Below, piece after piece: positions 3,010 to 42,944 of a DNA stretch of 43,175 bases. Below the pieces are notes generated by a model, which saw nothing but the letters and a program-made list of their open reading frames with translations, searched no databases and had not been told where the DNA came from. Within the stretch, counting starts at the first letter, position 1; every line of letters begins with the position of its first letter. Location of the stretch: NCBI GenBank assembly GCA_040754625.1, contig JBFMCF010000113.1:1-43175 (forward strand). The letters are read 5' to 3'. Position numbers and translations under genes: made by a program. Source of the stretch: a bacterium (GTDB taxonomy: Bacteria > JACRDZ01 > JAQUKH01).

Positions 3010-3015
3010 TTAAAT

Positions 3016-4931: not shown

Positions 4932-4980
4932 ATTCAAACAGTTCAAACGGATTAAACCGTTCAAACGGTTTGAACTGTTT
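4932..4980. repeat. 9-bp tandem repeat array (GTTTAAAC family), acsB-cooS gap
   Basis: One truncated and four full 9-base units (4940, 4949, 4958, 4967 as unit starts), variants of GTTCAAAC and GTTTGAAC, plus a partial last unit. The array starts 3 bases after the acsB stop and ends well before the cooS Shine-Dalgarno in transcript order. Words are self-complementary. Confidence 0.85.
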
Positions 4981-4983
4981 TTA

Positions 4984-7170: not shown

Positions 7171-7191
7171 AGTTCCTCCATAGTAAAAAAC

Positions 7192-7227
7192 AGTTTGAAC
7201 CGTTTAAACAGTTTAAACCGTTTAAAC
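7192..7227. repeat. 9-bp tandem repeat array (GTTTAAAC family), acsC-acsB gap
   Basis: Four perfect-length units at 7192, 7201, 7210 and 7219 (AGTTTGAAC, CGTTTAAAC, AGTTTAAAC, CGTTTAAAC). It begins 7 bases after the acsC stop. Two units are identical to a unit in the 2969 array and to one inside the permease gene at 42483. Confidence 0.88.
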
Positions 7228-7234
7228 GATTAAG

Positions 7235-8578: not shown

Positions 8579-8605
8579 ATGTTCCTCCGTTTATTGTAAA
8601 TAATT

Positions 8606-8676
8606 GTAGGGGCGTGATTTATCACGCCCTGTTTGGGCATTGTGCCATTTTTGGGCGCAATGAATTGCACCCCTAC
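8606..8676. repeat. GTAGGGGCG palindromic element, copy 1
   Basis: A 71-base element framed by GTAGGGGCG and its near inverse ending CCCCTAC. Inside, GGGCGTGATTTATCACGCCC is a perfect hairpin and a second, looser hairpin follows. It starts 3 bases after the acsD stop codon. A shorter copy lies at 11328-11380. There is no transposase nearby. Confidence 0.8.
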
Positions 8677-8679
8677 ATT

Positions 8680-9597: not shown

Positions 9598-9613
9598 TTT
9601 TTCCTCCATGTAT

Positions 9614-10372: not shown

Positions 10373-10376
10373 ATTT

Positions 10377-10434
10377 AGTTTATAAAGTTTTTAAAGTTGT
10401 AAAGTTTCTACTTTATAACTTTTAACTTTATAAC
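10377..10434. repeat. 9-base AAGTTNTAA-type array, metF-cooC gap
   Basis: Units of 9 bases run from 10377 (AGTTTATAA, AGTTTTTAA, AGTTGTAAA), then switch to the complementary words TTATAACTT and TTAACTTTA. The two halves can pair. The array begins 9 bases after the metF stop and extends almost to the cooC start. Confidence 0.7.
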
Positions 10435-10443
10435 ATCTTCTAA

Positions 10444-11313
10444 TTAAATTCCCGCTTTTTCCAAAATCAGCGGCACCTTATCCTCCATGCCGATTGCCAT
10501 AACATGGACACCATCGCAGATTGAGCGGAATTCATTAATCTGCCTGGCAGCTATTTGGATGCCTGTTTCCAATGGTTTTTCCGATTTCTCCAATTCGTTG
10601 ATAAGCTCATCCGGCACCCTGATACCGGGCACAAATTTATTCAAAAACCTTGCCATCTTGGCGCTTTTAAGAAGGAGTATCCCGCCGATTATTTTTACGG
10701 GGAAATGGCGGGCTGTTTCCATGAATTCTTCCATTTTTTTTGTGTCATATACTGCCTGTGTCTGGAAAAATTGCGCGCCAGCTTTAACTTTTTTCTCAAA
10801 TTTTAAAATCTGAGGTTCAATAGGGTCTGCCTCAGGCGTAACTGTGGCACCCATTGTAAACTCTGTTTTTCCTTTAAGCAGGTTTCCATTCATGTCCATG
10901 CCCCTGTTTAGCGTGGAAATGACCTGCAATAACTGGACTGATTCAATGTCAAAAACGGGCTTCGCCTGTTTATGGTCGCCAGCCTGCGTATGGTCGCCGG
11001 TCAGCGCAAGGACATTCCTGATACCAAGGACATGGGCTGATAAAAGGTCGGACTGGATTGCCAGCCGGTTCCTGTCCCTGCACGTTAACTGGTATATCGG
11101 GTCCAAACCATGTTCCAAAATCAGTTTTGAAGCGCCGAGCGAACCCAGGCGCATTACTGAACTCTGGTTATCGGTAACATTGACCGCGTCAACTTTTTCC
11201 TTCAAAAGGGAGGTGGAGTGAAGCATTTCCTGAACATCCGTCCCTTTTGGAGGGCCGGCCTCGGCGGTGATTATAAACTTGTCAGTTTCAAGAGCATTTT
11301 TTAAAGTGTTCAT
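10444..11313 (-). CDS. metF: Methylenetetrahydrofolate reductase, MetF subunit
   Basis: FAD-dependent reduction of 5,10-methylene-THF to 5-methyl-THF, the last step of the methyl branch. The 289-residue protein has the MTHFR TIM-barrel motifs: ITAEAGPPKG near residue 16, VDAVNVTDNQ, LTGDHTQAGDH around 104, FFQTQAVYD and GGILLLKSAK. The length is that of the short acetogen type (about 290), which works together with a MetV partner, and metV is directly upstream. No RnfC2-like subunit is present in the window. The ATG has only a weak ribosome-binding site, since a repeat element fills the gap before it. Confidence 0.95.
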   Translation of the reverse strand: MNTLKNALETDKFIITAEAGPPKGTDVQEMLHSTSLLKEKVDAVNVTDNQSSVMRLGSLGASKLILEHGLDPIYQLTCRDRNRLAIQSDLLSAHVLGIRNVLALTGDHTQAGDHKQAKPVFDIESVQLLQVISTLNRGMDMNGNLLKGKTEFTMGATVTPEADPIEPQILKFEKKVKAGAQFFQTQAVYDTKKMEEFMETARHFPVKIIGGILLLKSAKMARFLNKFVPGIRVPDELINELEKSEKPLETGIQIAARQINEFRSICDGVHVMAIGMEDKVPLILEKAGI

Positions 11314-11327
11314 GATAATATTTTTTT

Positions 11328-11380
11328 GTAGGGGCGTGATTTATCACGCCCTGATTGGGCGCAATAAATTGCGCCCCTAC
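11328..11380. repeat. GTAGGGGCG palindromic element, copy 2
   Basis: A compact 53-base version of the element at 8606. It has the outer inverted repeat GTAGGGGCG/GCGCCCCTAC and two inner hairpins, GGGCGTGATTTATCACGCCC and GGGCGCAATAAATTGCGCCC. It starts one base after the metV stop. Confidence 0.85.
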
Positions 11381-11381
11381 G

Positions 11382-12044
11382 TTATTTCTTTCTTTCCAAT
11401 ATAAGCCTGTCAGGTTTTATATGTTTACTATAATTTTTAGCGGGCTGTATATTTTTAAATTTTTCAAGATGATTGAATTTTTTAAGCCTTTCATAAATCA
11501 GTACCCACGCGCAGTCAACAGGCCGCTCTTCAGTTGAGATCTCGCACTTTCCCTTGTTCATTCCCCCGCACGGTCCGTTTAACAGTCCTTTCGCGCAATT
11601 TGTTATAGGGCATATGCCGTCGGTGAATGAAATCACGCATTCCCCGCACATTGAACAATGTTCGTGGAAATGCCCGTGCCTTTCGATGTTTCCCAAAAAC
11701 AGGGTGTTGCTTGCGGGCCGGACCGGTTTTTCGATTATTTCGGAAACCGATTGCGCGCATGCCCCGCACGCGGTTATCAGGATGGCGTCGGATTTATCAA
11801 TCGCCTCCTTATGCACCTTTAAATCTTTTTTTGTAAGGAGAACATGGCAGGGCGCGTTGATTACGGCGAAACCTGTCACATTTTTGCCAGATGTTTTAAG
11901 TTTTTCAATTAGTTCTTTAGTCGCTGTTTCCCCGCCTGTCTGGCATTCATCGGCGCAGACCGAACAGCCGACAAGAAAAATATTATTTTCTCCCTCGAGG
12001 GATTTAACTATTTCTTCTATGGGTTTTTGTTTTGTTACTATCAT
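11382..12044 (-). CDS. metV: MetV, zinc-binding partner of methylenetetrahydrofolate reductase
   Basis: Member of the MTHFR C-terminal zinc-finger family that pairs with MetF in acetogens and is needed for methylene-THF reduction. The 220-residue protein is cysteine-rich: CSVC at 27-30 and Cys34, Cys66, CGAC at 93-96, HCSMCGEC at 129-136, then Cys145, 150, 159 and 167 in the PITNCAKGLLNGPCGG segment. These could hold zinc and possibly an Fe-S centre. It is followed by metF with only the palindromic element between. Assignment rests on the family pattern and the context. Confidence 0.9.
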   Translation of the reverse strand: MIVTKQKPIEEIVKSLEGENNIFLVGCSVCADECQTGGETATKELIEKLKTSGKNVTGFAVINAPCHVLLTKKDLKVHKEAIDKSDAILITACGACAQSVSEIIEKPVRPASNTLFLGNIERHGHFHEHCSMCGECVISFTDGICPITNCAKGLLNGPCGGMNKGKCEISTEERPVDCAWVLIYERLKKFNHLEKFKNIQPAKNYSKHIKPDRLILERKK

Positions 12045-12081
12045 AAATATTCCCGTAACCAGTAATTACCTGATTTTTATT

Positions 12082-12939
12082 CTATTTTATCAATCCGTTT
12101 GCCATTTTCACGGACTTAACCGTGTTATGCATCAGCATTGTTATTGTCATCGGGCCGACGCCGCCCGGGACAGGCGTAATCATTGACGTTAAATCCTTTA
12201 CATTATCAAAGTCAACGTCGCCGCAAAGTGTCCCGTCAGGTAAACGGTTTACACCGACATCAATTACAACAGCGCCTTTTTTTACAAAATCCTTTGTTAC
12301 AAACTTTGGTTTTCCGATAGCCGCGATTAAAATATCCGCGCGGCGGCTTACCGCCGGCAAATCCTTGGTTTTTGAATGGCAGATTGTTACTGTAGCGTTT
12401 TCCTGCATTAAAAGCATGGCGACGGGCTTCCCGACAATATTGCTCCTGCCGATGACAACTGCCTCTTTACCTTCCATGTTAACCTTTGAATATTCAAGCA
12501 GTTTTATGACCCCGTATGGCGTGCAGGCCACAAATGTAGGTGTTCCCGCGACCAGTTTCCCGACATTATAAGGATGAAACCCATCAACGTCTTTTTCAGG
12601 AACTATACTTTCTAAAACTATATTTGTGTCAATCTGCTTCGGAAGAGGGAGCTGTACCAGGATACCATTTATTTTAGGGTCATTATTTAACTTTTTAATT
12701 AATTTAATAAGAGTTTCCTGTGATATGTTTTCCTCAAGTTTATGTTCTTCAGAATATATCCCAAGGCTGTTGGAGGCCTTTTGTTTCATGCTGACATAAA
12801 CCTTGGAAGCAGGGTTAGCGCCCACAAGAACAACCGCGAGACCCGGGATAATTCCTTTTTGTTTAAGTTGTTCAATATCTTTTTTTAGTTCAGATTGTAT
12901 ATCACCGCTTATTTTTTTCCCGTCGATAAGTTCAGGCAT
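12082..12939 (-). CDS. folD: Bifunctional methylenetetrahydrofolate dehydrogenase/methenyl-THF cyclohydrolase
   Basis: Interconverts 10-formyl-, methenyl- and methylene-THF; being bifunctional it makes a separate FchA unnecessary. The 285-residue protein has the substrate motif with Tyr48 and the catalytic Lys52 (YVSMK), ILVQLPLP, PEKDVDGFHP, the dinucleotide motif GRSNIVGKPVA and the C-terminal PVPGGVGPMT. AGGAG lies upstream of the ATG. It is the second gene of the operon, after cooC2. Confidence 0.97.
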   Translation of the reverse strand: MPELIDGKKISGDIQSELKKDIEQLKQKGIIPGLAVVLVGANPASKVYVSMKQKASNSLGIYSEEHKLEENISQETLIKLIKKLNNDPKINGILVQLPLPKQIDTNIVLESIVPEKDVDGFHPYNVGKLVAGTPTFVACTPYGVIKLLEYSKVNMEGKEAVVIGRSNIVGKPVAMLLMQENATVTICHSKTKDLPAVSRRADILIAAIGKPKFVTKDFVKKGAVVIDVGVNRLPDGTLCGDVDFDNVKDLTSMITPVPGGVGPMTITMLMHNTVKSVKMANGLIK

Positions 12940-12953
12940 TTATATTCTCCTAT

Positions 12954-13037
12954 GTTAGTTTATAAAGTTATAATGTTCTAAAGTAGTAAAGTTAAATCCA
13001 TACGTTACAAATTTTATAACTTTCAACTTTATAACTT
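12954..13037. repeat. 9-base GTTATAAAG-type array, cooC2-folD gap
   Basis: Words such as TTTATAAAGTTATAA and the complementary TTATAACTTTCAACTTTATAAC recur with a period near 9. The array overlaps the last codons of cooC2: its stop codon at 13029-13031 is part of a repeat word. It resembles the array at 10377. Confidence 0.6.
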
Positions 13038-13811
13038 ATTCAATTGCTTTTTTAAGTGTTCAATAACACTTTTGACTTCTTCCGCTGTTTTGCTGTTTTT
13101 ATCAAACTGGTAATTTCCAGTCTGGTCCTGCTTAAGTATATCAGTGCTGAAAGAAATAAGACCAAGCACCGGCAAATTTATTTCTTTCTGAATAGATTCT
13201 ATTTCATTATGATTTCTAACACGGTTTATTACAACAAAAATGTTTTTAATTGTAAGTTCCCTGGCCAAACGTTCAATCGTTAATGCCGTTTGCAGGCTTT
13301 TCCGGCCCGTGTCAATGACTATTATCAGGGCATCCACTGATTCAGCTGTCCCGCGGCTGAGATGTTCAATGCCCGCCTCCATATCTATTAAAATAATTTC
13401 TTCCCTGTTTACCAGGATATGTTTCAAAAGTGTTTTTAAAAGCGCGTTTTCAGGGCAGAAACAACCGCCGCCGCCTGATTTTAATCCTCCCAACATAAGA
13501 AATTTAATATCCGCATTGATATTTTTACTATATTTTTCAGGAATATCATCCACTTTTGGATTCATTTTAAAAAAGGGATTATTTATTCCCGGTTTAGTTC
13601 CTGTTCTTTCAGCAATGAGTTCTTTCATTTCAGAAAGAGGCACTATATCTTTTGTTTCTTTTAAACTTAATCCCAGTGACAGGCCTAAGTTTGAATCAGG
13701 GTCAGCGTCAAGCGCAAGGACCTTATTTCCGGCAGACGAGAAAGTAAATGCTAACAGGCTGGTTAATGTTGTTTTTCCGACTCCGCCTTTTCCAGAAACA
13801 GCGATTTTCAA
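13029..13811 (-). CDS. cooC: CooC-type nickel-insertion ATPase (second copy)
   Basis: First gene of the operon as transcribed. The 260-residue protein has the deviant Walker A GKGGVGKTT at residues 7-15, LDADPDSN at about 34-41, and a C-F-C metal site at Cys117 and Cys119 preceded by a glycine run. It is clearly diverged from the 9614-10372 copy, so this is not a recent duplication. One copy probably serves CODH and the other ACS; which is which cannot be told here. The start is TTG, with two purine-rich GGCGG stretches just upstream. The last codon and stop lie in a repeat array. Confidence 0.9.
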   Translation of the reverse strand: MKIAVSGKGGVGKTTLTSLLAFTFSSAGNKVLALDADPDSNLGLSLGLSLKETKDIVPLSEMKELIAERTGTKPGINNPFFKMNPKVDDIPEKYSKNINADIKFLMLGGLKSGGGGCFCPENALLKTLLKHILVNREEIILIDMEAGIEHLSRGTAESVDALIIVIDTGRKSLQTALTIERLARELTIKNIFVVINRVRNHNEIESIQKEINLPVLGLISFSTDILKQDQTGNYQFDKNSKTAEEVKSVIEHLKKQLNKL

Positions 13812-31228: not shown

Positions 31229-32158
31229 ATGAAAAATATAACACGCAGACGTTTTTTGGAAAAAGCTGTCAAAATTACCGGCCTTTTAGCCTTTTCTAAC
31301 GCAATGCCGAAGGGTTTAATGACTTATGCAATTGGAGAAGATACTAAAAAATCTTTGATAGGAATCGGGAAAGGTGAAAATTACGGAAAGATTGCAAACC
31401 TGGCTTTAGAAGCGGCTGGAGGAATAGGGAAGTTTGTAAAAAGAGGGGATAAAGTAGTCATCAAACCCAATATTTCATGGGACAGGCCGCCGGCATTGGC
31501 CGCAAATGTCCACCCGGAGGTCTTGAAAGAGGTTATTGCGATGTGTCTTAATGCAGGTGCGGGTAAAGTTATTATTTTTGACCGCCCATGCAACGATCCG
31601 AGGCGAAGTTATGTAAACAGCGGTGCAGAAGACGTTGTTAAAGGTTTTAAAAACAGCCAGGTAAATTTGATACATGTTGATAATAAAAATTATATAGAAA
31701 AAATATTCAAAGAAGGAAAATTTATTACGAAGTGGAATATTTACAGGGAAGCACTGGAAAATGATGTTTTCATCAATCTTGCTAAAGCAAAACATCACGG
31801 CCTTTCTAAACTTACCCTGGGAATGAAAAATATGATGGGAGTCATGGGAGGTGATCGGGGTGTAATGCACCAGCATATTGACCAAAATCTGGCTGATTTG
31901 AATTTTTTAATCCGGCCCAAATTAGTAATACTTGATGCGGGCAGGATTCTATGGCGGAACGGGCCCCAGGGCGGAGATATTTCAGATACTAAAAAAGCGG
32001 ACCAGGTAATCGCAAGCCAGGATGTTATAGCGGTTGATTCATACGGTTCAACCCTATTTGATATAAAAGGAAGCGATTTAGGATACATAACCATTGGGAA
32101 AGAAATGGGATTGGGAGAAAGCGATCTGAAAAAAGTGGAGATTAATATTAAACAATGA
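31229..32158 (+). CDS. Tat-exported DUF362 protein
   Basis: A 309-residue protein with a twin-arginine signal at the N terminus (NITRRRFLEKAV, hydrophobic stretch to about residue 30) followed by a full DUF362 domain: VVIKPNISWDRPP, VIAMCLNAGAGKVIIFD, KHHGLSKLTLGMKNMMG and GRILWRNGPQGG. DUF362 proteins are often found with ferredoxin-like partners; the reaction is not known. Tat export implies folding, perhaps with a cofactor, in the cytoplasm. Its stop codon overlaps the start of the polyferredoxin gene by 4 bases. Confidence 0.9.
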   Translation: MKNITRRRFLEKAVKITGLLAFSNAMPKGLMTYAIGEDTKKSLIGIGKGENYGKIANLALEAAGGIGKFVKRGDKVVIKPNISWDRPPALAANVHPEVLKEVIAMCLNAGAGKVIIFDRPCNDPRRSYVNSGAEDVVKGFKNSQVNLIHVDNKNYIEKIFKEGKFITKWNIYREALENDVFINLAKAKHHGLSKLTLGMKNMMGVMGGDRGVMHQHIDQNLADLNFLIRPKLVILDAGRILWRNGPQGGDISDTKKADQVIASQDVIAVDSYGSTLFDIKGSDLGYITIGKEMGLGESDLKKVEINIKQ

Positions 32159-33657
32159 AATGGCGGCGCAGGGCTGTCCAGATTTTTATTTTTGTTTTTT
32201 TTGTGTTTCTTTTCCTGGAAACCACATATCAGGGAAAGGATATTCTTAGTTATCCCGTTAATATTTTTTTGCGGCTTGACCCTTTAATTGCGCTTGGCAC
32301 TATGATTTCCGTACGGAAATTTATAGAAGGTTTTGGTGGGGCATTTTTGATTCTGTTTGCAACTGTTATTCTTGGCCGTTTTTTTTGCGGATGGGTATGC
32401 CCCTTAGGGACATTTTTAGATGTTTTTTCAACTGTATTTTTCAGAAAAAAGAGATTTTTTTATAAAGAAAAACAAAATTATCAAAAATACCGCTGGAAAT
32501 ATTATATATTAATTTTTCTTTTGGTTACATCGGTCTTCAGCATTCAGTCTGTTTTTCTGCTTGACCCTATAAGCCTTATCACAAGAAGTTTTACGATAAC
32601 TGTTTATCCTGCCTTTAATTTTTTATTTTCACGCTGGAGTTTTTTCCTGCCCGCGTCCGTTAAAAAATCGGTTTTTCTTGATGCGCAACCTGTTTTTCTT
32701 TTAAATATTTTTATAACTGTTTTTTTTATTATTATACTGTTCCTGGAAAATTTCGGGAAGCGTTTCTGGTGCCGGAATTTATGCCCCCTGGGAGCAATGC
32801 TTGGTTTAGTTTCAAGATTTCCATTGTTCAGGCGCGTTGTGGGAGAAGGCTGTAATGACTGCGGGCTGTGCGGGAAGAATTGTAAAATGAACGCTGTGAG
32901 GGACGATTTTAAAAACAACCTCTCCTTCGAATGTATTGACTGCTTTACCTGCGCGGACGCATGCCCTGCGGAAGAAGTCAATTTCGTATTCTCACCGGAT
33001 ATTAATTCGAGGCAAAAATTCGATTTATCCAGGCGTCACGTGTTATTTTCTGTTTTTGGAGGGGTTTTATCCGTCCCCATAATAAAAAACATTTATCTCC
33101 AAAAAGATGAATTATTCAAGGCGGGAAATGATTATTTAATCCGCCCGCCCGGGGCCGTGACGGAAACTGAATTTTTAAATCGTTGTATAAGATGCGGTAA
33201 ATGCATGCGCGTGTGTTTAGGAAACGCTCTCCATCCCGCATTAATTGAGGCGGGATTGGAGGGATTATGGTCTCCCATGCTTGTCCCGAGGTTAGGATAT
33301 TGTGAATATAATTGCACGCTTTGCGGACAGGTTTGTCCTACACAGGCGATTAAAGAGTTAACTCTGGATGAGAAGAAAAAGAATATAATCGGCCTTGCGC
33401 ATTTTGATAAAAACAGGTGTATTCCGTATGCGAGACGGACAAATTGCATGGTTTGCGAAGAGCACTGTCCCACATCTCCAAAGGCAATTGTTTTTGAAGA
33501 GACCAAAGAATTAACCAGAGAAGGTTATCCTATCAAGCTTCCCAGGGTTGTTGAGGATAAGTGCATCGGCTGCGGTATCTGCCAGAATAAGTGCCCGGTC
33601 CAGGGGAAAGGGGCGATCATTGTGACTAGGGAAAAAGGGATGAAATCCGGAGATTAA
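32155..33657 (+). CDS. NapH/NapG-like fused membrane polyferredoxin
   Basis: A 500-residue iron-sulfur membrane protein. The first part is NapH/CcoG-like: four or so membrane helices with the CGWVCPLG motif at 78-85 and CRNLCPLG at 206-213, then two ferredoxin motifs (Cys233-243 and Cys260-270). Residues 292-310 (LSRRHVLFSVFGGVLSVPI) look like a Tat-type or membrane segment. It is followed by four further cysteine clusters (344-354, 383-394, 422-438, 470-480) as in NapG. The C-terminal half may therefore lie outside the cytoplasm. It probably passes electrons between the quinone pool and the DUF362 neighbour. Confidence 0.88.
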   Translation: MKWRRRAVQIFIFVFFVFLFLETTYQGKDILSYPVNIFLRLDPLIALGTMISVRKFIEGFGGAFLILFATVILGRFFCGWVCPLGTFLDVFSTVFFRKKRFFYKEKQNYQKYRWKYYILIFLLVTSVFSIQSVFLLDPISLITRSFTITVYPAFNFLFSRWSFFLPASVKKSVFLDAQPVFLLNIFITVFFIIILFLENFGKRFWCRNLCPLGAMLGLVSRFPLFRRVVGEGCNDCGLCGKNCKMNAVRDDFKNNLSFECIDCFTCADACPAEEVNFVFSPDINSRQKFDLSRRHVLFSVFGGVLSVPIIKNIYLQKDELFKAGNDYLIRPPGAVTETEFLNRCIRCGKCMRVCLGNALHPALIEAGLEGLWSPMLVPRLGYCEYNCTLCGQVCPTQAIKELTLDEKKKNIIGLAHFDKNRCIPYARRTNCMVCEEHCPTSPKAIVFEETKELTREGYPIKLPRVVEDKCIGCGICQNKCPVQGKGAIIVTREKGMKSGD

Positions 33658-33659
33658 AA

Positions 33660-34736
33660 ATGGCAAAAACAGGTAAACTTATTTCTATTTTGATTTTAGC
33701 TGCAAATCTTTTAGGTTGTATAAGAAAAATCCCTGATGAGATCAGGAAAACAGGTATCGAGGGACGTATAGTACATTATGACCAGTTATTGGAAAGCGCT
33801 TACGTTTACGCCTATCAGGATTCGGATTTCACTAAACCGCCTTTATTTGTTTCCGGCCCAAGCAGTGACAACGGCCGCTATGATTTTGAAATACCGGCAG
33901 GGAAATACTTTATCGCGGCTAAAAAAGATAACATTTATTTCAGCTATTTTGGAGGAAACCCGATAATGGTCAGAAATAATGAATACTCGTGGGTCGGCCT
34001 GAATTGCATAAAAACGGAAATTGACGATTTAAAAGCTTATGAAAATTCCAATAAAGAGGAGACGGTTTTAAAAGGCCGAGTCACATACCAGGACAATCCG
34101 CTTGAAAATGCGTATGTTTATTTATATCTTGAGGACAAAACAGATTTTAAAGGAATGGGATTCCAGACATCGCTTCCGACGGATAAAGATGGAAGATTTA
34201 AATTTACTAATTTACCGGAAGGCAAATATTATCTTTACGCAAGAAAAAGAAACATTCCCGGGCCCTCCGGTCCGGTCCAGATAGGGGATTATTCGGGATA
34301 TTTTCATTTAAACCCGGTTGATGTCCGGTGGGGGGTAACAAGTGAGGTTAATATAAAATGCATTGTCCGTGCCGGGGAAATAGGAAAAGAAGTCCTTTCA
34401 ATAGGAAGCGGCAATATAATTATCCGCGGGAAAATCCTTGATTCAAAAGGCCGGCCGGTTAAAGGAATATACGCTTTTTTATATAAAACGCCTGTTATTG
34501 GCCATGAACGGCCGGCATATATTTCTAATGTCACGGATGAGTCTGGTATCTATGAGATTCGTTTAAAAACCAGCGGGAAATATTATCTGGGAGCCAGGCA
34601 GATATTCGGTGATTCGCCCCGTCCGGGCGAACTTTATGGCCTTTATGATAACACGCCGGACCATTCAGTTACAACAAAAGAAGGGGAAATTATTAAAGGG
34701 CTTGTCATTATTGTAAATCCAATCCTGAATCAATGA
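33660..34736 (+). CDS. Lipoprotein with three carboxypeptidase-regulatory-like repeats
   Basis: A 358-residue predicted lipoprotein with lipobox NLLGC (Cys20). Three similar domains of about 100 residues follow, starting near GIEGRIVHYD, VLKGRVTYQD and IIRGKILDSK. Each ends with an AGKYFIAAKK / EGKYYLYARK / SGKYYLGARQ strand. This is the prealbumin-like beta-sandwich seen in CarboxypepD_reg domains. It starts 2 bases after the polyferredoxin stop, so it belongs to the same operon. A binding or scaffold role on the outer face of the membrane is likely, the ligand unknown. Confidence 0.82.
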   Translation: MAKTGKLISILILAANLLGCIRKIPDEIRKTGIEGRIVHYDQLLESAYVYAYQDSDFTKPPLFVSGPSSDNGRYDFEIPAGKYFIAAKKDNIYFSYFGGNPIMVRNNEYSWVGLNCIKTEIDDLKAYENSNKEETVLKGRVTYQDNPLENAYVYLYLEDKTDFKGMGFQTSLPTDKDGRFKFTNLPEGKYYLYARKRNIPGPSGPVQIGDYSGYFHLNPVDVRWGVTSEVNIKCIVRAGEIGKEVLSIGSGNIIIRGKILDSKGRPVKGIYAFLYKTPVIGHERPAYISNVTDESGIYEIRLKTSGKYYLGARQIFGDSPRPGELYGLYDNTPDHSVTTKEGEIIKGLVIIVNPILNQ

Positions 34737-34808
34737 AAAAAACTGGCCATTAAAATCCTGCTAATTTTTATACTTTAGATATTTCAGAAAAAATCCGATT
34801 AAATAATA

Positions 34809-36752
34809 ATGCTGAGTGGACTAAAAAAAGAATTATATTTTAAGATTACAATAGTAGGAGTCATATCTGTTTTGGTACCAAGTTTGGTCTTTTATTTTTC
34901 TTCCGCTAAAATCCTGACTAAAATGGTGGGTGCGAATCTAAAGGGGATTTCAGAACGGTTTTCCAATAATTTCCATTTGGTTATTGCAAATAATATAGAA
35001 CATGTGGAAGATCTGGCCTGCAATCCTTTCCTGGTTTATTTCACACAAAAAGCCAATGAAAAAAATACCGCCGGAAATCAAGAAAACACAAGCAAGGCAA
35101 TTCAGGATATAGATACAAAGTGGATAAACGGAAGTTTACCGCAGGATTTTATCGATAATATTTTGAAAAATTCCTTAAGTATTTTGCTGAGAGATAACAT
35201 AAATTACCAGGCAAATTATATGGAAATTTTTGTTACAGATAAAAGGGGCGTTGTTATCGCGGCAACGAACAAGACGTCTGATTATTATCAAGCCGATGAG
35301 ACATGGTGGCAAAAAGCGTATAACAGCGGCAATGGTGAAAATTATATTGATAAAATCGGGTTTGACAGCAGTGCGAACTTATATTCTTTGGATATATGCC
35401 TTCCAATAAGGGATAAGAAAGATAATAATGTAATCGGAATAATAAAAGCGGTTTCTGATATTAAAAAGGTCATATATCCGGCTTTTTCCGAAAAGATAGG
35501 TGAGACGGGCAGGGCGGGACTTATTTCTTCGGATGGTACAACCATATTTGGCAGGGACGGTTTCATGGTCAAAGTATTCAATAAGGAAATAACAGACAAA
35601 ATTAAGCATGAAAAAGATTTTTTTGTTGATTACTGTCCCCGGACCAAAGAGAAAATGATTTTTGCCGCTGCGCCTGTTACCCAAAAGGAATTTTCAATCG
35701 GTGATAATATGTATGTTGTAATCAGCCAGAATTTAAGCGAGGCTGTTAAACCGGTAAAACAATTAATAATGATTATTTTTATTGTCGGATTTATGACATG
35801 GATAGTCGTTATTTATTTTGTGAGATTGTTTTTAACCAGGCTTGTGAATGTTATAAATATTATTAATGAAGGCATGAGGGCGATTGAATCCAGTAAAATT
35901 ACTATTGCCCATCCCTCAAATGCGAGGGATGAACTTGAAAATCTGACTATGACCTTTAATAGTATGGTGCAGGCTATTAAGGAAAGAGATAAATTAAAAG
36001 TAGATAAATCAGAATTGGAAACAATTTCAAAGGAACTCATTGATAAAAATGTTGAATTGGGGGAATTTATTTATTCCATTTCTCATGATTTAAGGGCGCC
36101 CGTGGTTTCAATAAGCGGATACTCTTCAATTCTTTTGGAGGAATACGCTGACAGATTAGATGACGAAGGGAAAAAATATTTGAAGAGGATAAGTGAAAAT
36201 ACGGCGTTTATGGAACAATTAATTCATGATCTGATTGATTTATCCCGTGCAGAAAGGATTAATTTTGTTTTCCAGGACGTTGACGTATCGGAAATATTAG
36301 AAGCTGTTTCCTCGCAATTCAGCGAAGAAATCAGAAAAAAGAAGATTAATTTTGTCGTTAAATCCAGGCTGAAAAAGATTTATGCCGATAAAATAAAAAT
36401 TATACAGGTATTTAATAATCTTATCGGCAATGCCATAAAATATATAGATACTGACAAGGCTCCGTATATTGAGATTGGAGGAGAAATGGACGGGGATTTC
36501 TATAAATTTTATATCAAGGACAATGGTATCGGAATCTCAAAGGCGAATCAATCCAAAATATTCAAGCTTTTTTACCGCGTGGAGGGAACGGGTATTTCAG
36601 GGACAGGCGTTGGTTTGAATATTGTCAAGAAAATTGTTGAAAGACACCAGGGAAAAATCTGGGTTGAATCTGAGCTTGGCAAAGGATCAACTTTTTATTT
36701 TACCTTGTATAAATCACTCTGTGATATTAACGAAAAAAATGATAAAATTTAA
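34809..36752 (+). CDS. Membrane histidine kinase with dCache-like sensor
   Basis: A 647-residue sensor kinase. Membrane helix 1 at about 12-30, a large extracytoplasmic domain of the dCache type (TDKRGVVIAATN around 143-154, ETWW at 164-167, second lobe near 235-310), helix 2 at about 318-342, a HAMP region, then HisKA with the phospho-acceptor His426 in ISHDLRAP, and an HATPase domain with NLIGNAIKY, DNGIGIS and GTGVGLNIVKKIVERHQG. The kinase core is of the phytochrome-like/ETR type that typically signals to small Rcp1-like regulators, and such a gene follows. Confidence 0.94.
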   Translation: MLSGLKKELYFKITIVGVISVLVPSLVFYFSSAKILTKMVGANLKGISERFSNNFHLVIANNIEHVEDLACNPFLVYFTQKANEKNTAGNQENTSKAIQDIDTKWINGSLPQDFIDNILKNSLSILLRDNINYQANYMEIFVTDKRGVVIAATNKTSDYYQADETWWQKAYNSGNGENYIDKIGFDSSANLYSLDICLPIRDKKDNNVIGIIKAVSDIKKVIYPAFSEKIGETGRAGLISSDGTTIFGRDGFMVKVFNKEITDKIKHEKDFFVDYCPRTKEKMIFAAAPVTQKEFSIGDNMYVVISQNLSEAVKPVKQLIMIIFIVGFMTWIVVIYFVRLFLTRLVNVINIINEGMRAIESSKITIAHPSNARDELENLTMTFNSMVQAIKERDKLKVDKSELETISKELIDKNVELGEFIYSISHDLRAPVVSISGYSSILLEEYADRLDDEGKKYLKRISENTAFMEQLIHDLIDLSRAERINFVFQDVDVSEILEAVSSQFSEEIRKKKINFVVKSRLKKIYADKIKIIQVFNNLIGNAIKYIDTDKAPYIEIGGEMDGDFYKFYIKDNGIGISKANQSKIFKLFYRVEGTGISGTGVGLNIVKKIVERHQGKIWVESELGKGSTFYFTLYKSLCDINEKNDKI

Positions 36753-36765
36753 AGGAGGAAATTTA

Positions 36766-37206
36766 ATGTCAATGAATTTGATCGAAATTTTGCTTGTAGA
36801 GGATAATCCTGACCATATTACTTTGATTTTGCATGCCTTGAAGGATAATAAAGTGGTGAACAATATTCATGTGGCTGAGGATGGAGAATTGGCCATGGAT
36901 TATCTTTATCACAGGGGTAAATTTAATGATACAAAAAAGTTCCCGGCGCCAAACCTGATTCTTTTGGATGTTAAACTGCCCAAGCTCGACGGATTTGAGG
37001 TCTTAAAAGCTGTAAAGGGCGACCCCGCATTAAAAAAGATACCGGTTGTTATGCTGACTACCTCGGATAAGGATGAAGAAATTATCCGAGGTTATAGCGA
37101 AGGAGCCAACAGCTACGTTACCAAACCCGTTGATTTTAATGAATTCCAGAAAAAAATAAAAAATCTTGATATGTATTGGGCGCTGGTGAGCGAATTACCT
37201 ACTTGA
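36766..37206 (+). CDS. Single-domain response regulator, Rcp1-like
   Basis: A 146-residue receiver domain without output. I set the start at 36766, where AAAGGAGGA lies 6-7 bases upstream; a longer frame reaches back into the kinase gene. Acidic pocket VEDNPDH at 11-17, phospho-acceptor Asp68 in LLDVKLP, Thr98/Thr99 and Lys120 are all present. The family pattern (NNIHVAEDGELAMDYLYHRG) is that of Rcp1. Cognate kinase is most likely the preceding gene. Confidence 0.93.
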   Translation: MSMNLIEILLVEDNPDHITLILHALKDNKVVNNIHVAEDGELAMDYLYHRGKFNDTKKFPAPNLILLDVKLPKLDGFEVLKAVKGDPALKKIPVVMLTTSDKDEEIIRGYSEGANSYVTKPVDFNEFQKKIKNLDMYWALVSELPT

Positions 37207-37277
37207 GAGGACAGTGATGAAACAATAGTCATAATAATAAGGTAAATAGAATAGTAAAAAAAATTGGAGCTTGCCTA

Positions 37278-38249
37278 ATGTCGGGAGAAAGAAAAGTAAA
37301 GGTTTTAGTTGTTGAAGATAATAATGACCACGCTTTTTTAGTTAAAAGAGCGTTAGAAAAAACACCTGAATTTTTTTTAGTTAAGGTAGTTGACAGCGTG
37401 GAGAAATGCCTTGAAGAGATTCAAAAAGGAGAATTTAATATTATAATAAGCGATTATAAATTGCCCGGTTTTACCGGACTGACATTATTGTCGCAATTAA
37501 AAAAGAAAAACATTGATCTGCCGTTAGTTATGCTTACAGGATCGGGGAATGAGGAGATAGCGGTAAAGGCAATGAAAGAAGGGGCTTATGACTATGTAAT
37601 TAAAGAGCCGGATTATTTTAAGACTATACCGCTGGTTATAAGAAGGGCCTTGGACCGCTACAGGGATAAAAAAGAAAAAGAAAGATTGGAAGATGAGATT
37701 AAAAAGAAAATGCTGGAACTGGAGGATGTTAATAAAAAATTGGCCATTCTTTCGATAACAGACGGGCTTACAGAAATTTTTAATTACCGCTATTTGGGCG
37801 AGGTTTTGGAAAAAGAATGTGAAAGGACAAAACGTATTGAAGGCAATATTTCCTGCATAATTATAGATGTCGATTTTTTTAAAAATATTAATGATAAATT
37901 TGGGCACCAGGCCGGAGATTATATACTTCAGCAGCTTAGCAAGATATTTTATAAAAATCTCCGCCGGATTGATACTATAGGACGCTATGGGGGCGACGAG
38001 TTCATTTTAATTCTTCCTGAAACGACCGCGGAAGGAGCGGAAACCGTAAGTGAGAAATTAAGGAAATTGATTGAGAACAAGGTTTTTGTTTTTGAAGGAA
38101 ACAGCATCAAGGTTACTATAAGTATCGGCATTGCTTCATTTAAGGGGGAGAAACTACTTACAAAAGAATTGGTTATAAAATTGGCAGATGATGCGCTATA
38201 CAAGGCTAAAAACAACGGGCGCAACAGGATAGAAGTGGTGTCCGGTTAA
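37278..38249 (+). CDS. Response regulator with GGDEF domain (diguanylate cyclase)
   Basis: Predicted c-di-GMP synthase of 323 residues. REC domain at 7-125 with Asp59 as phospho-acceptor (IISDYKLPG) and Lys109; a coiled coil at about 128-156; a GGDEF domain with the intact signature YGGDEF (GGDEF at 238-242) and an RxxD inhibitory site (RRID, 229-232) five residues before it. It should be active and feedback-inhibited. A GGAG lies 11 bases before the ATG. It follows the Rcp1-like regulator and may be driven by the same kinase. Confidence 0.93.
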   Translation: MSGERKVKVLVVEDNNDHAFLVKRALEKTPEFFLVKVVDSVEKCLEEIQKGEFNIIISDYKLPGFTGLTLLSQLKKKNIDLPLVMLTGSGNEEIAVKAMKEGAYDYVIKEPDYFKTIPLVIRRALDRYRDKKEKERLEDEIKKKMLELEDVNKKLAILSITDGLTEIFNYRYLGEVLEKECERTKRIEGNISCIIIDVDFFKNINDKFGHQAGDYILQQLSKIFYKNLRRIDTIGRYGGDEFILILPETTAEGAETVSEKLRKLIENKVFVFEGNSIKVTISIGIASFKGEKLLTKELVIKLADDALYKAKNNGRNRIEVVSG

Positions 38250-38270
38250 GCATAAACATCTTCCAAGGCT

Positions 38271-39272
38271 CTAAATATTTTTAATGATTTTTAAAAGATA
38301 AACCAGCGACCGTTCTTCCGAGGATATGGATTTCTCACTTAAAATTTTAAATGCTTTTCTGATTTTGTTAGCTGGAAATTTTTTCATGAGTTTGAGTATC
38401 TCTTCCACGGTATCAGGGTCGTATTTTTTATAAATTATTGCTGCATATTTGACGGCCTTTTCGATATCTTTCTTATTATAATTCGTATTAACGTTTTTCC
38501 ACTGCGTTTCTGTAATCTCCCAGGAATACAAAACCAGGACTTTATATTTGATTTTCGGCTTATTATTAAAGATATTTATTTCTTTTGAACTGAAAGCTTC
38601 CAGCAAATTGTATTGCAAAAGCTCTTCCAAACCTTCATTTATTTGGGACAAACTTAAATTATATTTCAAGGCAAGCATATCGGGGTCTATTTCCCAGTGG
38701 GTATCAAAAGGAATTAGTTTTATTTCCATAAGATTGATAAAATAAGTGAATAACCCTGTGAATGAAAGCCTTTTCTCCCATCCAAAAATCCAGAGGGTTT
38801 CGGGAATGACAAGATAATCAATATTAGGATATTTATACGGCAAATGGTCTTCTTTCAGGCTTAATAATTTTATTCCGGGGTTATCTTTAAAATGAGGGTC
38901 AAATTCAATAAGTTCATATTTTTTATAAAGAATATTCAGGATTTTTGTTATTTTATCGTAGGCTTTTTTGGATGTCATATCAGGACAAAGATATTCTTTG
39001 ATATCTGCGTATTTTACTTTAACTTCACCATTGACGTCTCCTGTGAAATTTTTTAAAAGAAACAGATAGGCCAAAAAAACATCTTTATCATCGGAATACA
39101 ACATTCTTTTTCCAAACGTTTTATTTGTAAGAAATTTTTCAGGGAGAAGGATGTCTTTTTTTATGGATTGTTCTGTTTGAATGAAAAGTTTTTTTTCATT
39201 TGAGAATTCTTCCGCTCTTAGGCACGTAAAAGATATAAGAAAAAGGGTTAAAAAAATTGAATATCTGTTCAT
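38271..39272 (-). CDS. Exported protein of unknown function with winged-helix-like modules
   Basis: I do not recognise the family. From the ATG at 39272 (MNRYSIFLTL) it is 333 residues with a clear signal peptide ending near LRA-EE. Two internal segments, roughly residues 75-150 (VKYADIKEYLCPDMTSKKAYDKI and following) and 190-245 (IDPDMLALKYNLSLSQINEGL and following), look like helix-turn-helix or winged-helix folds of the replication-initiator kind, which is odd for an exported protein. The C terminus is a Lys-rich helix bundle. It converges on the diguanylate cyclase gene and diverges from the beta-helix lipoprotein gene. Confidence 0.7.
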   Translation of the reverse strand: MNRYSIFLTLFLISFTCLRAEEFSNEKKLFIQTEQSIKKDILLPEKFLTNKTFGKRMLYSDDKDVFLAYLFLLKNFTGDVNGEVKVKYADIKEYLCPDMTSKKAYDKITKILNILYKKYELIEFDPHFKDNPGIKLLSLKEDHLPYKYPNIDYLVIPETLWIFGWEKRLSFTGLFTYFINLMEIKLIPFDTHWEIDPDMLALKYNLSLSQINEGLEELLQYNLLEAFSSKEINIFNNKPKIKYKVLVLYSWEITETQWKNVNTNYNKKDIEKAVKYAAIIYKKYDPDTVEEILKLMKKFPANKIRKAFKILSEKSISSEERSLVYLLKIIKNI

Positions 39273-39338
39273 GAATAAATTATACCTGAAATTTATTAAA
39301 ATATACAAAGTTTTTGTGTTAAAATATATTCCGGAACC

Positions 39339-40205
39339 ATGATAAAAATAAGTTTATTGATTATACTTCTACTTATCGGCTGCCAGAAGACAAATTTTAG
39401 GGAAACTGTTGTTAAAAATGGCAGATTTGAAAATATATCTATATCACAGGATATAGTTTGGGAAGGCAATATAAACATTGCCGGGGTTGTTACAGTCAAA
39501 AGACGGGCAGTTTTAACAATTCTCCCCGGGACAAAAATTTTGTTCAAAAAAGTAAACTTGGATAATGATGAAATAGGAGACAGCGAATTAAATATTGAGG
39601 GGAAAATTATCGCAGAAGGTACAAGGGAAGCTCCAATTGTGTTTACATCGTTTGAAAAAGACAAAAAACCGGCTGACTGGAAATTTGTATATCTTTCTTT
39701 TAATGATAAAAGCCGGCTTTCCTATTGTAAATTTGAATATGCTTTTACAGGCCTTCAGGTGCATTATTCGGAAGCGTATATTGACCATTGTTTTTTCGAA
39801 AATAATGTAGAAGGCATGCGGTATTCAACTGTGAAGCTTCTTCTGAAAAATAATATGTTTCGTAATAATATTTATGGGTTAAGATATGAAGAGAGGCGGT
39901 CAGAAGCTGAAATTTCGCATAATGATTTTTCACAGAATGATTTTGGGGTTTTTTGTGTTATGAGGTCGGACAATAACACCAGGTTTTATAACAATAACAT
40001 CTGCAACAATAAAAAATATAATTTTATTATGGGCCAGGAGCAGGAAAAAAGTATAACTGTGAAATCAAATTATTGGGGGTCGGATAACGAATCTGAAATT
40101 CTCCTGGGGATATTTGACGGCCGGAAGGAGGAAACAATAGGGATAATTAATTTTTTACCTTATTTGCGGGAAAAAGTTGTTATAGACGGATGGGAAAGTT
40201 TATGA
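39339..40205 (+). CDS. Lipoprotein with right-handed beta-helix
   Basis: A 288-residue predicted lipoprotein: lipobox LLIGC with Cys15, then the motif VKRRAVLTILPGTKILF that opens many parallel beta-helix (pectate-lyase-like) proteins. Rungs such as SRLSYCKFEYAFTGLQVHYS, AYIDHCFFENNVEGMRYS, LLLKNNMFRNNIYGLRYE and AEISHNDFSQNDFGVF follow. No catalytic residues can be named; such folds bind or cut polysaccharide or are structural. First gene of a four-gene operon: its stop overlaps the next start (ATGA). Confidence 0.85.
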   Translation: MIKISLLIILLLIGCQKTNFRETVVKNGRFENISISQDIVWEGNINIAGVVTVKRRAVLTILPGTKILFKKVNLDNDEIGDSELNIEGKIIAEGTREAPIVFTSFEKDKKPADWKFVYLSFNDKSRLSYCKFEYAFTGLQVHYSEAYIDHCFFENNVEGMRYSTVKLLLKNNMFRNNIYGLRYEERRSEAEISHNDFSQNDFGVFCVMRSDNNTRFYNNNICNNKKYNFIMGQEQEKSITVKSNYWGSDNESEILLGIFDGRKEETIGIINFLPYLREKVVIDGWESL

Positions 40206-41155
40206 AAATACTTGCGCCAATTGATAATATCAATGAGTTAGAGGGATTAATTACGGAGGGAGCTGATGAGTTCTACGGCGGTTTTATACCCTATGCCTGG
40301 TTCAGGGAATATGGGGCCGCGGGTTCTCTCAACAGGAGAAATTTTCTGTCTGCACAGATAAAAAGTGAAAAAGAACTTTCAAAGATTGTTGAAATTATCC
40401 ATTCTCATAAAAAGCGTTTTTATCTTGCTTTAAATCAAAAACTGTTTTTTTCCAGTCAATACCCGTTCATGAATAATTTTATAAAATATATTGCGGGTAT
40501 ACATGTTGACGGCATTATTACCGCCGACCTGGGATTTAACCTTTATCTTAAAAAAGAGGACTATAATATCCCTGTTATTCTTTCAACGCTTGCGCAGGTA
40601 ATGAACAGCGGCTCTGCCGGATTTTATCGTGAATTGGGAATTAAAAGGATTGTTTTATCACGTGATTTAAGCTTGAAAGAAATTAAGAAAATAGTAAACG
40701 AAAATCCGTCTCTTGAATTTGAGGTTTTAATACTTATCGGAAAATGCTTTAATTTGGAAGGTTTTTGCACCTATGAACATTGTAATCCAAACCGTATCTG
40801 GCCCTGTAACCAGGAATATAAAATAACTTTTAATAAAGAAGTTAATTTTGAAAACGAGGTTGCAAGACAGATTAAAGCCTGGAGCCAGACCAGGCGGACA
40901 GATGCATGTGGATTATGCGCCTTAAATTATCTGAAGAAAATCAATATAAAAAGCTTAAAAATAGTCGGCCGGGGTGCAAGCTATGAACGAAAAATAAAAA
41001 CGGTAAAATCTCTTAAATTTCTTTTGGATTATTTAAAAAATAAAAAAAATATTGAAAATGAAATGTTTTACGCTTTAGCCAAAAAAAAATATGAAAATAT
41101 TTTCGGACATAGCTGCGTAAAAGCAAATTGCTATTTTCCGGAGCTGGCCATATGA
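40202..41155 (+). CDS. Peptidase U32 family protein, UbiU-like
   Basis: A 317-residue U32 protein. N terminus APIDNINELEGLITEGADEFYGG is the family hallmark. Six Cys lie late in the chain: 182, 189, 194, 202, 236 and 239; the C-x6-C pair at 182/189 and later Cys resemble the four ligands of the [4Fe-4S] cluster in UbiU. UbiU/UbiV act together in oxygen-independent hydroxylation. I choose the ATG at 40202, which overlaps the previous stop by 4 bases, over the one at 40190. A U32-type partner follows directly. The substrate is unknown, since ubiquinone genes are not seen. Confidence 0.85.
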   Translation: MKILAPIDNINELEGLITEGADEFYGGFIPYAWFREYGAAGSLNRRNFLSAQIKSEKELSKIVEIIHSHKKRFYLALNQKLFFSSQYPFMNNFIKYIAGIHVDGIITADLGFNLYLKKEDYNIPVILSTLAQVMNSGSAGFYRELGIKRIVLSRDLSLKEIKKIVNENPSLEFEVLILIGKCFNLEGFCTYEHCNPNRIWPCNQEYKITFNKEVNFENEVARQIKAWSQTRRTDACGLCALNYLKKINIKSLKIVGRGASYERKIKTVKSLKFLLDYLKNKKNIENEMFYALAKKKYENIFGHSCVKANCYFPELAI

Positions 41156-41955
41156 AAATTTTAAATATATCAAAAATCGAAAAAGCTGTATATTGTAACG
41201 ATGTTTCAATTCTTAAAAAAATTAAGAAAAAGAATAAGTTCTCCAGAATTTATTTCGGAGAGGAATTTTGCCCGTTTCGTCTTCCCACAAAAGAAGATTT
41301 AGAATCAGTGATTAAATATGCCAGGAAAAATAAATTGCAATTTACATTTGTAACCCCCTGGCTGACGGATGATGCCCTGGCAAGGGTCCGGGGTTTATTG
41401 GAAGTTGTTCCTTTTGGCTCCGAGGTCGTAATAAATGATTACGGGCTCCTTTTGGCGCTTAAAAGGGAAAAAAACAATTTTATTCCGGTCCTTGGCCGTT
41501 TATTAAACGGCCAAATCAGGGGATTACGGGCCAATTATGAAAGACGTTTAACCAAAAATATTTTAAAAAATTTCCAGAGCTGTCATCCGCAGATTGAAAC
41601 TTTGGCTGATTTCTATAAAAATAACGGCATAAACAGGATAGAACTGGATAATTTGCCACAAGGGATTAAAACCGGGTTTGAAAATAAGCGTTTTTCCGGA
41701 TCATTGTACTATCCTTACGGGTATATTACTGTAACAAGGTTCTGTCCTTATATTATTTTAAAAAACAGATTTAATCTTATTTTTTCGATAAAAAAATGCA
41801 ATAAAACATGTCTTAAATCCATTTTTCCCATGGAAAATAAAGAGACTGACAGGAAAATTTTTGTAATAGGGAATTCTCATTTTTTTAAAAACAACAACAT
41901 ACCTAAAAATTTATCTGAATTAGGGATTGACAGGTTGGTAGAGGAATTATTTTAA
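41152..41955 (+). CDS. Peptidase U32-like partner, UbiV-like
   Basis: A 267-residue divergent U32 protein. Cysteines at 40, 198, 216 and 220 match the pattern I recall for E. coli UbiV (Cys39, then C-x12-C-x3-C); here the spacing is C-x17-C-x3-C. Other UbiV-like traits are IYFGEEFCPFR at 34-43, FVTPWLTDDAL and NRIELDNLPQG. The start at 41152 overlaps the upstream stop by 4 bases, and its own stop overlaps the permease start by one base. Together with its partner it probably forms a heterodimer holding two Fe-S clusters. Confidence 0.75.
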   Translation: MKILNISKIEKAVYCNDVSILKKIKKKNKFSRIYFGEEFCPFRLPTKEDLESVIKYARKNKLQFTFVTPWLTDDALARVRGLLEVVPFGSEVVINDYGLLLALKREKNNFIPVLGRLLNGQIRGLRANYERRLTKNILKNFQSCHPQIETLADFYKNNGINRIELDNLPQGIKTGFENKRFSGSLYYPYGYITVTRFCPYIILKNRFNLIFSIKKCNKTCLKSIFPMENKETDRKIFVIGNSHFFKNNNIPKNLSELGIDRLVEELF

Positions 41956-42944
41956 TGGAGAATATTTTTAGTGTTTTTTATGTAATTTTTGAGGAAATAA
42001 AAATAATGGGCCCATACTTTTTTTTTAGCGTAATTTTGGGGGCAGTGCTGAAAACATACAAAATTGACCGGAAGCTTTATAGTTTTCTCAACCAATCTCC
42101 TGTAATTTCTATCCTTATAGCGACAACAGCAGGTGTAGTTTCACCAATGTGTTCATGCGGCATACTTCCGGTATTTATAACCCTTCTGGATATAGGTGCT
42201 CCCTTGTCTGCGTCAATAAGCCTTTTAATTACGTCACCCGTCATGAGTCCTGATGCTTTTATTTTAACCTATGGGGGCCTGGGGTATAAGATGGCTTATA
42301 TTAAACTATTCGGGGCAGTTTTTATTGGTATCCTGTCCGGTTTTGTTTTTTTGTATCTTGAAAAAAGAAAGTTCTTTTCGGAAAGCGTCCTGAAAAGCAA
42401 TATTTATACAAATAAAAAAGGAGTGTGCCAGATAAAAAAGAGGTCAGAAATAGATAGTTTAAACGGTTTGAACTGTTTGAACCGTTTAAACGACAAAGAA
42501 AAACGGCTTCCGGTTGATACCCAATTGGCGGACAATAAACTCCTCTTTTTTTACAAAAGGGCAAGGGAACTTTTTATCTTTATTGGAAAATTTTCACTGT
42601 TAGCCGTAATCGTTGAAGCAATAATCGCAGTATACATACCTTATGAATGGGTAGAAGCGGTCTTGGGGAAAAAAGCCGGAATTTTATCGATTTTTAACGC
42701 GGTATTAATTGGTATCCCTCTTCCTGTTAACGGGATATCGGTGATAAATGTTTTAAAGGGATTAATGGAAAAAGGCATGTCAAACGGCGCGGCTGTTGCT
42801 TTTATGTTTGCGGGTCCTGTCACCGCAATACCCGCGATAACAGCCCTTGCCGGAATGGTAGAAAAGAGGATCGTCTGGATATTTCTGATTCTAGGCATAC
42901 TTAGTTCGGCAATTTTAGGATTTTTCGGACAGTTCATTATTTAA
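41955..42944 (+). CDS. ArsP/DUF318-type permease
   Basis: A 329-residue membrane protein of the family that includes ArsP, an exporter of trivalent organoarsenicals. Two similar halves of about four helices flank a hydrophilic loop. The first half has the signature SPMCSCGILPV (Cys66 and Cys68) and LITSPVMSPDAFILTYGGLG; the second half has GIPLPVNGISVINVLKG and MFAGPVTAIPAI. The loop (about 140-195) contains a 12-residue insert SLNGLNCLNRLN at 168-179 encoded by four 9-base repeats. What it transports here is unknown; operon position suggests a product or substrate of the U32 pair. Confidence 0.88.
   Translation: MENIFSVFYVIFEEIKIMGPYFFFSVILGAVLKTYKIDRKLYSFLNQSPVISILIATTAGVVSPMCSCGILPVFITLLDIGAPLSASISLLITSPVMSPDAFILTYGGLGYKMAYIKLFGAVFIGILSGFVFLYLEKRKFFSESVLKSNIYTNKKGVCQIKKRSEIDSLNGLNCLNRLNDKEKRLPVDTQLADNKLLFFYKRARELFIFIGKFSLLAVIVEAIIAVYIPYEWVEAVLGKKAGILSIFNAVLIGIPLPVNGISVINVLKGLMEKGMSNGAAVAFMFAGPVTAIPAITALAGMVEKRIVWIFLILGILSSAILGFFGQFII
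42456..42491. repeat. 9-bp tandem repeat array (GTTTAAAC family) inside the permease gene
   Basis: Four units, AGTTTAAAC, GGTTTGAAC, TGTTTGAAC and CGTTTAAAC, in phase with the codons, so each adds X-Leu-Asn. The family is the same as that in the cooS, acsB and acsC gaps 35 kb away. The insert lies in the soluble loop between the two halves of the permease. Confidence 0.88.

Follow-up and report, generated by a model that had tools for sequence, protein, structure and literature searches.

UbiU and UbiV (YhbU/YhbV) are two U32-type proteins, encoded by adjacent genes in the order U then V, that work as an O2-independent hydroxylase pair on a prenylated ring in ubiquinone synthesis (PMC6747719). 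The iron-sulfur (Fe-S) ligands of UbiV are C39, C180, C193 and C197, in the motif CXnCX12CX3C, and the cysteine set of UbiU is C169/176/193/232, in the motif CX6CX16CX38C; TrhP and RlhA, which are likewise U32 hydroxylases, carry the motif CX6CX15CX3C (PMC6747719). In the openly licensed literature that was searched, UbiU/UbiV pairs were described only in ubiquinone makers, and no paper was found that places such a pair beyond ubiquinone synthesis or within the operons (qhp) of quinohemoprotein amine dehydrogenase (QHNDH), nor any that joined QHNDH with U32 proteins or brought DUF362, FG-GAP, ASPIC and NosD together. Here we analysed a 43,175-nucleotide (nt) stretch of DNA from an uncultured bacterium (the window; GenBank assembly GCA_040754625.1, contig JBFMCF010000113.1), which is the whole of one contig of a 2.75-Mb draft genome (G000, 98% complete) and ends just past the last of four plus-strand open reading frames (ORFs) at 39339–42944. 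These encode a beta-helix lipoprotein of 288 residues (P0001, 39339–40205), a UbiU-like U32 protein of 317 residues (P0002, 40202–41155), a UbiV-like protein of 267 residues (P0003, 41152–41955) and an ArsP_1 (PF03773) permease of 329 residues (P0004, 41955–42944). Judged by sequence profile, cysteine pattern and tree position, P0002 and P0003 are remote relatives of UbiU and UbiV, as an earlier note on this DNA had proposed.

The profiles compared were alignments of P0002 relatives (A2, nine rows) and P0003 relatives (A1, seven rows) with canonical UbiU (A6) and canonical UbiV (A5), the canonical sequences being those of E. coli and six plasmid-borne copies. P0002, which contains the Peptidase_U32 domain (PF01136, 122 bits), matched UbiU in hhalign at 99.9% (E 3.4e-36, 274 columns), and P0003, which had no match in Pfam or NCBIfam, matched UbiV at 78.5% (E 1.7e-5, 202 columns); as a cross-control, the P0003 profile matched UbiU at only 1.6%. 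Profile identity was about 25% for the U subunit and 16% for the V subunit. Among solved structures, neither P0002 nor P0004 had a direct match. A structure-profile search with A2 weakly recovered the U32 domain 5d88, together with a marginal protein-kinase match that we took as noise, and the same search with A1 found nothing.

In P0003, cysteines C40, C198, C216 and C220 (codons within 41269–41811, plus strand) align with UbiV C39/C180/C193/C197, the last three at the spacing CX17CX3C, and all four are kept in nearly all of the 19 alignable sequences of the new clade, G246 and G317 each missing one. The P0002 codons for C182, C189, C202, C236 and C239 lie within 40745–40918 (plus strand), and the first four of these residues match UbiU C169/176/193/232 at a slightly shorter spacing than in canonical UbiU (C182-X6-C189-X12-C202-X33-C236). 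Conservation among P0002 relatives was complete for C182 and C189 (19 of 19 rows each) and C236 (18 of 18), and lower for C239 (17 of 18) and C202 (15 of 19). Unlike UbiU, whose canonical alignment has no conserved C-terminal cysteine, P0002 and its relatives carry three extra conserved cysteines, namely C239 together with C305 and C310 (codons within 41114–41131, plus strand; 17 of 17 rows each).

A tree of 31 U32 proteins, UbiU-like ones among them, placed the new UbiU-like proteins in a single clade (support 100/100), sister to canonical UbiU (94/95). The earlier note had named a grouping with rRNA-type U32 proteins as one outcome that would count against its proposal, and the tree placed P0002 apart from both TrhP and RlhA. 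P0002 itself fell in an ArsP-linked subclade of seven proteins (100/96; G000, G001, G002, G003, G110, G373 and G141), and the qhp-linked proteins described below formed a separate subclade (100/100). The UbiV tree was less resolved: the new proteins split from canonical UbiV, and the ArsP clade was not recovered whole. As P0002 scored 72.6 bits against the NCBIfam UbiU model, under its cut-off of 440, and did not fall in the canonical clade, we place the window pair outside the ubiquinone family.

Sister pairs of this family occur inside QHNDH operons at four loci, L041 (G100), L067 (G366), L071 (G229) and L076 (G312), where they sit among qhpA/D/C/B, followed by qhpF and qhpE where the contig continues. 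UbiV precedes UbiU in these operons where both are visible, opposite to the ubiquinone and window order; at L076 only the UbiV gene is seen before the contig end. The QHNDH alpha, beta and gamma subunits and the radical S-adenosylmethionine (SAM) maturase at L041 all scored above cut-off (TIGR03908, 545 bits; TIGR03907, 287; NF037958, 140; TIGR03906, 592), as did beta, gamma and maturase wherever scanned, and a QhpC with CWWPAQVPD is encoded in each operon, across three lineages. Among 386 sampled genomes, a sample drawn around G000, a UbiV-profile scan found the UbiV-like family in 22, and the QHNDH alpha subunit exceeded the NCBIfam cut-off in four only, all of them pair carriers (G100, G366, G229 and G312). 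By our own calculation, four genomes drawn at random would all belong to the 22 carriers with a probability of about 8e-6, or about 1.4e-4 with the two congeners counted once, and co-location within the operon lowers it further.

QhpG, a flavin adenine dinucleotide (FAD) monooxygenase, introduces two oxygens derived from O2 into the tryptophan of cysteine tryptophylquinone (CTQ) (PMC7876137). A search for QhpG in the four genomes gave a best score of 18.9 bits, compared with 976 for the positive control, the absence being weaker in G229, which is 68% complete. The sample says nothing on the many qhp operons of Pseudomonadota; of two that we viewed, one had an adjoining FAD monooxygenase and the other had none within 9 kb. 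Because the sister pairs stand where the O2-dependent QhpG is expected, a hydroxylation setting beyond ubiquinone, which the earlier note had suggested for the window, is credible, and the suggestion thereby gains indirect support; the window itself contains no qhp gene. From their sequence context, the qhp-linked pairs are candidates for anaerobic CTQ biogenesis.

The earlier note had described four translationally coupled genes, and their order and overlaps of 4 (ATGA), 4 (ATGA) and 1 (TAATG) bases are as it stated. A congener, G001 (contig JAQUKH010000003.1, locus L005), has the four genes in identical order, with 67–72% identity for the U32 pair. Between the two genomes, the four genes differed at 0.42–0.52 of third codon positions and 0.09–0.17 of second positions; since the differences lie mostly at third positions and the order is kept, we conclude that these are four genuine, selected genes. 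A chance overlap of ORFs was ruled out by the same codon-position differences. The overlaps kept in G001 are those of UbiU with UbiV (4 nt) and of UbiV with the permease (1 nt). P0001 has the N-terminus MIKISLLIILLLIGCQ, with the lipobox LLIGC, matches Pfam Beta_helix and NosD, and has an orthologue in G001 (L005:7067–7927) and relatives in G110 clusters (191 bits). It shares the right-handed beta-helix of NosD and other periplasmic beta-helix proteins and differs from them as a lipoprotein without nos genes; its score against NosD TIGR04247 was 23.3 bits, under the cut-off of 300.

The permease link was borne out by gene-neighbourhood searches. The pair occurs with ArsP_1 in G000, G001, G002, G110, G246, G373, G386, G387 and G391, which represent three families and two phyla, so that the link recurs in two families beyond that of the window, one of them in another phylum. 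Most of the genomes compared are drafts, and neighbours without a Pfam or NCBIfam match were named by reading their sequences. Within the subclade of the window, the permease comes after the pair in G000, G001, G002 and the G110 family; the G003 locus ends at a contig edge and G141 is fragmentary. P0004 (141.3 bits, gathering threshold 32.3; SPMCSCG motif) has cluster-linked homologues in G002 and the G110 family at 185–226 bits. With other ArsP_1 permeases (the SO_0444 Cu/Zn efflux protein, SaoE, ArsP and YraQ) it shares PF03773 and the CSCG motif; it differs from them in its link to a U32 pair, and it scored under the NCBIfam cut-offs for SO_0444 (131.1 of 300 bits) and SaoE (93 of 325). In E. 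coli MG1655 (L081, 1599–2639 and 5253–7868), yraQ, which scored 17.6 bits to P0004, lies five genes from ubiT-ubiU-ubiV, an arrangement that may be due to chance.

The unit is larger than the four genes of the earlier note: the DUF362, polyferredoxin, CarboxypepD_reg lipoprotein and sensor kinase genes upstream (31229–36752) have counterparts in the corresponding neighbourhood of another phylum. Gene order in the G110 family, apart from small gaps due to contig ends or masked bases, is CarboxypepD_reg lipoprotein, CbiF-like methylase, UbiU, UbiV, AAA, FmdE, ArsP_1, FG-GAP/ASPIC, CarboxypepD_reg and beta-helix. On one G110 contig, a span of about 45 kb holds homologues of the window's DUF362 protein, NapH-like polyferredoxin, CarboxypepD_reg lipoprotein and beta-helix protein, as well as one that matches the G001 FG-GAP protein at 558 bits. 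Because these homologues cluster on that contig, we take the real unit to be the block of about 12 kb at 31229–42944 plus the downstream genes seen in G001. The CbiF-like methylase and FmdE of the G110 family, which lack close homologues in G000–G003 (FmdE having only marginal matches in G000 and G001), are therefore not essential to the block.

Upstream of the operon, on the plus strand, the block begins with a DUF362 protein (31229–32158; PF04015; G110-cluster homologue, 255 bits) whose N-terminal RRRFLEK is a possible twin-arginine translocation signal, overlapped by 4 nt by a NapH-like membrane polyferredoxin (32155–33657; Fer4_5 and other Fer4 domains; G110 homologue, 401 bits). A CarboxypepD_reg lipoprotein follows (33660–34736; PF13620; G110 homologue, 220 bits), with homologues in all informative relatives (G001, G003, G110, G141, G373, G386, G391 and G394). 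The sensor histidine kinase at 34809–36752 (plus strand) has matches of 56–76 bits near G110-family clusters, which may reflect family-level similarity only, and a response regulator with a GGDEF domain (37278–38249, plus strand) is weakly tied to the block, by receiver-domain matches of 37–72 bits only. Between the regulators and the operon, on the minus strand, lies a gene for a secreted protein of unknown family (38271–39308), which has no Pfam match and stands in the same place in G001.

On balance, we consider it probable, by a modest degree, that P0002 and P0003 form a two-subunit, O2-independent Fe-S hydroxylase of the UbiU/UbiV type that acts on a substrate other than ubiquinone, and that its product or by-product is moved by the permease for an envelope system. 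By analogy with UbiU/UbiV and the qhp cases, the two proteins would be made together as a heterodimer, each with a probable 4Fe-4S cluster, and would add one oxygen atom, for which prephenate may be the donor, to a substrate of cytoplasmic origin. Prephenate dehydratase is encoded in G000 and in 10 of the 11 genomes tested, which indicates that prephenate is present. The permease, translationally coupled to the pair, would carry the product or by-product across the inner membrane, and the envelope side would comprise the beta-helix and CarboxypepD_reg lipoproteins, the FG-GAP protein, the DUF362 protein and the NapH-like polyferredoxin, probably as an electron-transfer or cofactor-loading system. 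As to what the substrate is and which way transport runs, our statements are guesses.

Other substrates have to be weighed against this proposal. The pair might hydroxylate a protein or peptide, with a secreted protein of the block (the CarboxypepD_reg lipoprotein, FG-GAP or beta-helix protein) as substrate and the permease serving another need such as metal homeostasis, which we regard as unlikely. The qhp context does point to the tryptophan of the QhpC peptide as the substrate of the sister clade, and wherever the neighbourhood is visible the ArsP-linked clade has CarboxypepD_reg lipoproteins alongside. However, we recognised no counterpart of the small peptide QhpC or of the peptide exporter QhpF in the ArsP-linked clusters, and secreted lipoproteins are normally exported by Sec in an unfolded, unmodified state. 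That the pair modifies menaquinone or a different prenylated aromatic is decidedly unlikely. The earlier note had stated that no ubiquinone gene was near, and, taken as an inference on quinone genes in general, this is not supported as worded: G000 and G001 each have a full futalosine menaquinone cluster (the UbiA-family matches of G000, at C47, fit that pathway), and in G001 the cluster follows the block, with mqnL and mqnP first, about 4–6 kb downstream. This linkage, attractive in G001 and in keeping with the prenylated ring on which canonical UbiU and UbiV act, was ruled down because it is not conserved in G000, whose mqn cluster lies on another contig behind different upstream genes, and because G246, a complete genome, carries pair and permease while lacking MqnA/MqnD and showing a single modest UbiA match; a quinone role is thus possible but not favoured. 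Moreover, unlike the surroundings of UbiU/UbiV, the window pair is coupled to a permease and envelope proteins, and no UbiT or ubiquinone gene was recognised by eye at the locus, no genome-wide search for UbiT (SCP2) having been made. A second UbiD-UbiA cluster in the genome has its own, different U32 proteins.

For a tetrapyrrole-type compound, oxygenated by the pair and then exported by the permease, the chances appear slimmer again. A gene for a CbiF-like tetrapyrrole methylase stands immediately before the pair in G141 and in six of seven G110-family genomes examined, the seventh having a masked gap at this point, and a CobN/BchH-type chelatase lies near the pair of G045, as a cobaltochelatase does in a Roseburia plasmid; but the methylase, lacking a close homologue in G000–G003, is not essential to the window's version, and both chelatase cases belong to different subclades. 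We find it very improbable that the two U32 proteins modify RNA in the manner of TrhP or RlhA and stand by chance beside a metal or arsenical permease. P0002 does share the U32 domain and the CX6C start of the motif with these hydroxylases, and it scored about equally against the TrhP (75.5 of 534 bits) and UbiU NCBIfam models, far under both cut-offs. Yet its remaining cysteine spacing and its branch differ from theirs, it has a UbiV-type partner whereas TrhP and RlhA are single-subunit enzymes, and another U32 protein of G000 (para_L001) is the one that pairs with RlhA in the tree.

Several observations weigh against the proposed hydroxylase and transport system itself. To our knowledge, no activity is known for any member of the family, and the match of P0003 to the UbiV profile is moderate (78.5%). 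Structures predicted for P0002 and P0003 from two-sequence alignments had a predicted local distance difference test score of about 46, too poor to judge whether the cysteines cluster. The beta-helix gene of G001 stops 73 bp ahead of the UbiU-like gene, with no overlap, so the lipoprotein may be a mere neighbour, and this part of the coupling described for the four genes is not conserved. Related pairs occur without the permease in G045, G322, G190, G317 and G191, which places transport outside the basic activity. Finally, the methylase and FmdE of the G110 family have no close counterparts in G000–G003, and no substrate gene common to all ArsP-linked clusters was found. Overall, we regard the interpretation offered in the earlier note as partly supported.

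Other U32-type genes and neighbourhoods were seen in the course of this analysis. The second UbiD-UbiA pair of G000 (L147, G000:C108, 1650–13596; orthologous to L148, G001:C18) is accompanied by two different U32-type proteins, a Gfo/Idh oxidoreductase, an isomerase-like TIM barrel, an O-methyltransferase and a B12-type radical SAM protein, and looks like an uncharacterised anaerobic pathway for a prenylated aromatic or quinone. Elsewhere in the window, a minus-strand run at 205–13811, read from translations, encodes Wood-Ljungdahl proteins (formate-tetrahydrofolate ligase, CO dehydrogenase, acetyl-CoA synthase, corrinoid protein subunits, methyltransferase, MetF and FolD) and is consistent with an acetogen-like anaerobe. 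Among more distant pairs, those of G122 (L042) and G153 (L077) adjoin similar radical SAM proteins, confirmed by Pfam in G122 only, and the UbiV-like protein of G122 has a C-terminal methyltransferase-like extension. The UbiV-like gene at L078 (G278, 7987–9962) directly follows a MoeA-like gene, and at L037 (G002, 8162–12696) a pair is followed by a phosphoesterase and then MoaA- and MoaC-like genes, which may point to a molybdenum-cofactor neighbourhood. On the plasmid of Roseburia sp. 831b (NZ_CP135163.1; L084, 11305–13993), genes for a UbiV-like protein of 476 residues, annotated as hypothetical, and a UbiU-like protein adjoin a heavy-metal P-type ATPase and an ArsR regulator, with the cobaltochelatase and an iron ATP-binding cassette transporter further off. 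This strain provides a named anaerobe in which the family could be studied.

Since a sister clade shares the cysteine set but has other neighbours, oxygen insertion by paired U32 proteins without O2 appears to reach well beyond quinones. More broadly, and tentatively, UbiU/UbiV-like pairs may constitute a general, previously unrecognised module for O2-independent hydroxylation that serves several anaerobic pathways; it would replace QhpG in qhp operons and, in the lineage of the window, build a new exported compound or cofactor for the conserved envelope system. The qhp cases are directly testable, because it is known what product to expect, a hydroxylated tryptophan in QhpC, and if the pairs do act there they would explain how a tryptophylquinone enzyme is made without O2 although QhpG requires it. 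The cluster in the window would in turn represent an envelope system, conserved but uncharacterised, that offers a candidate for a new oxygenated metabolite or protein.

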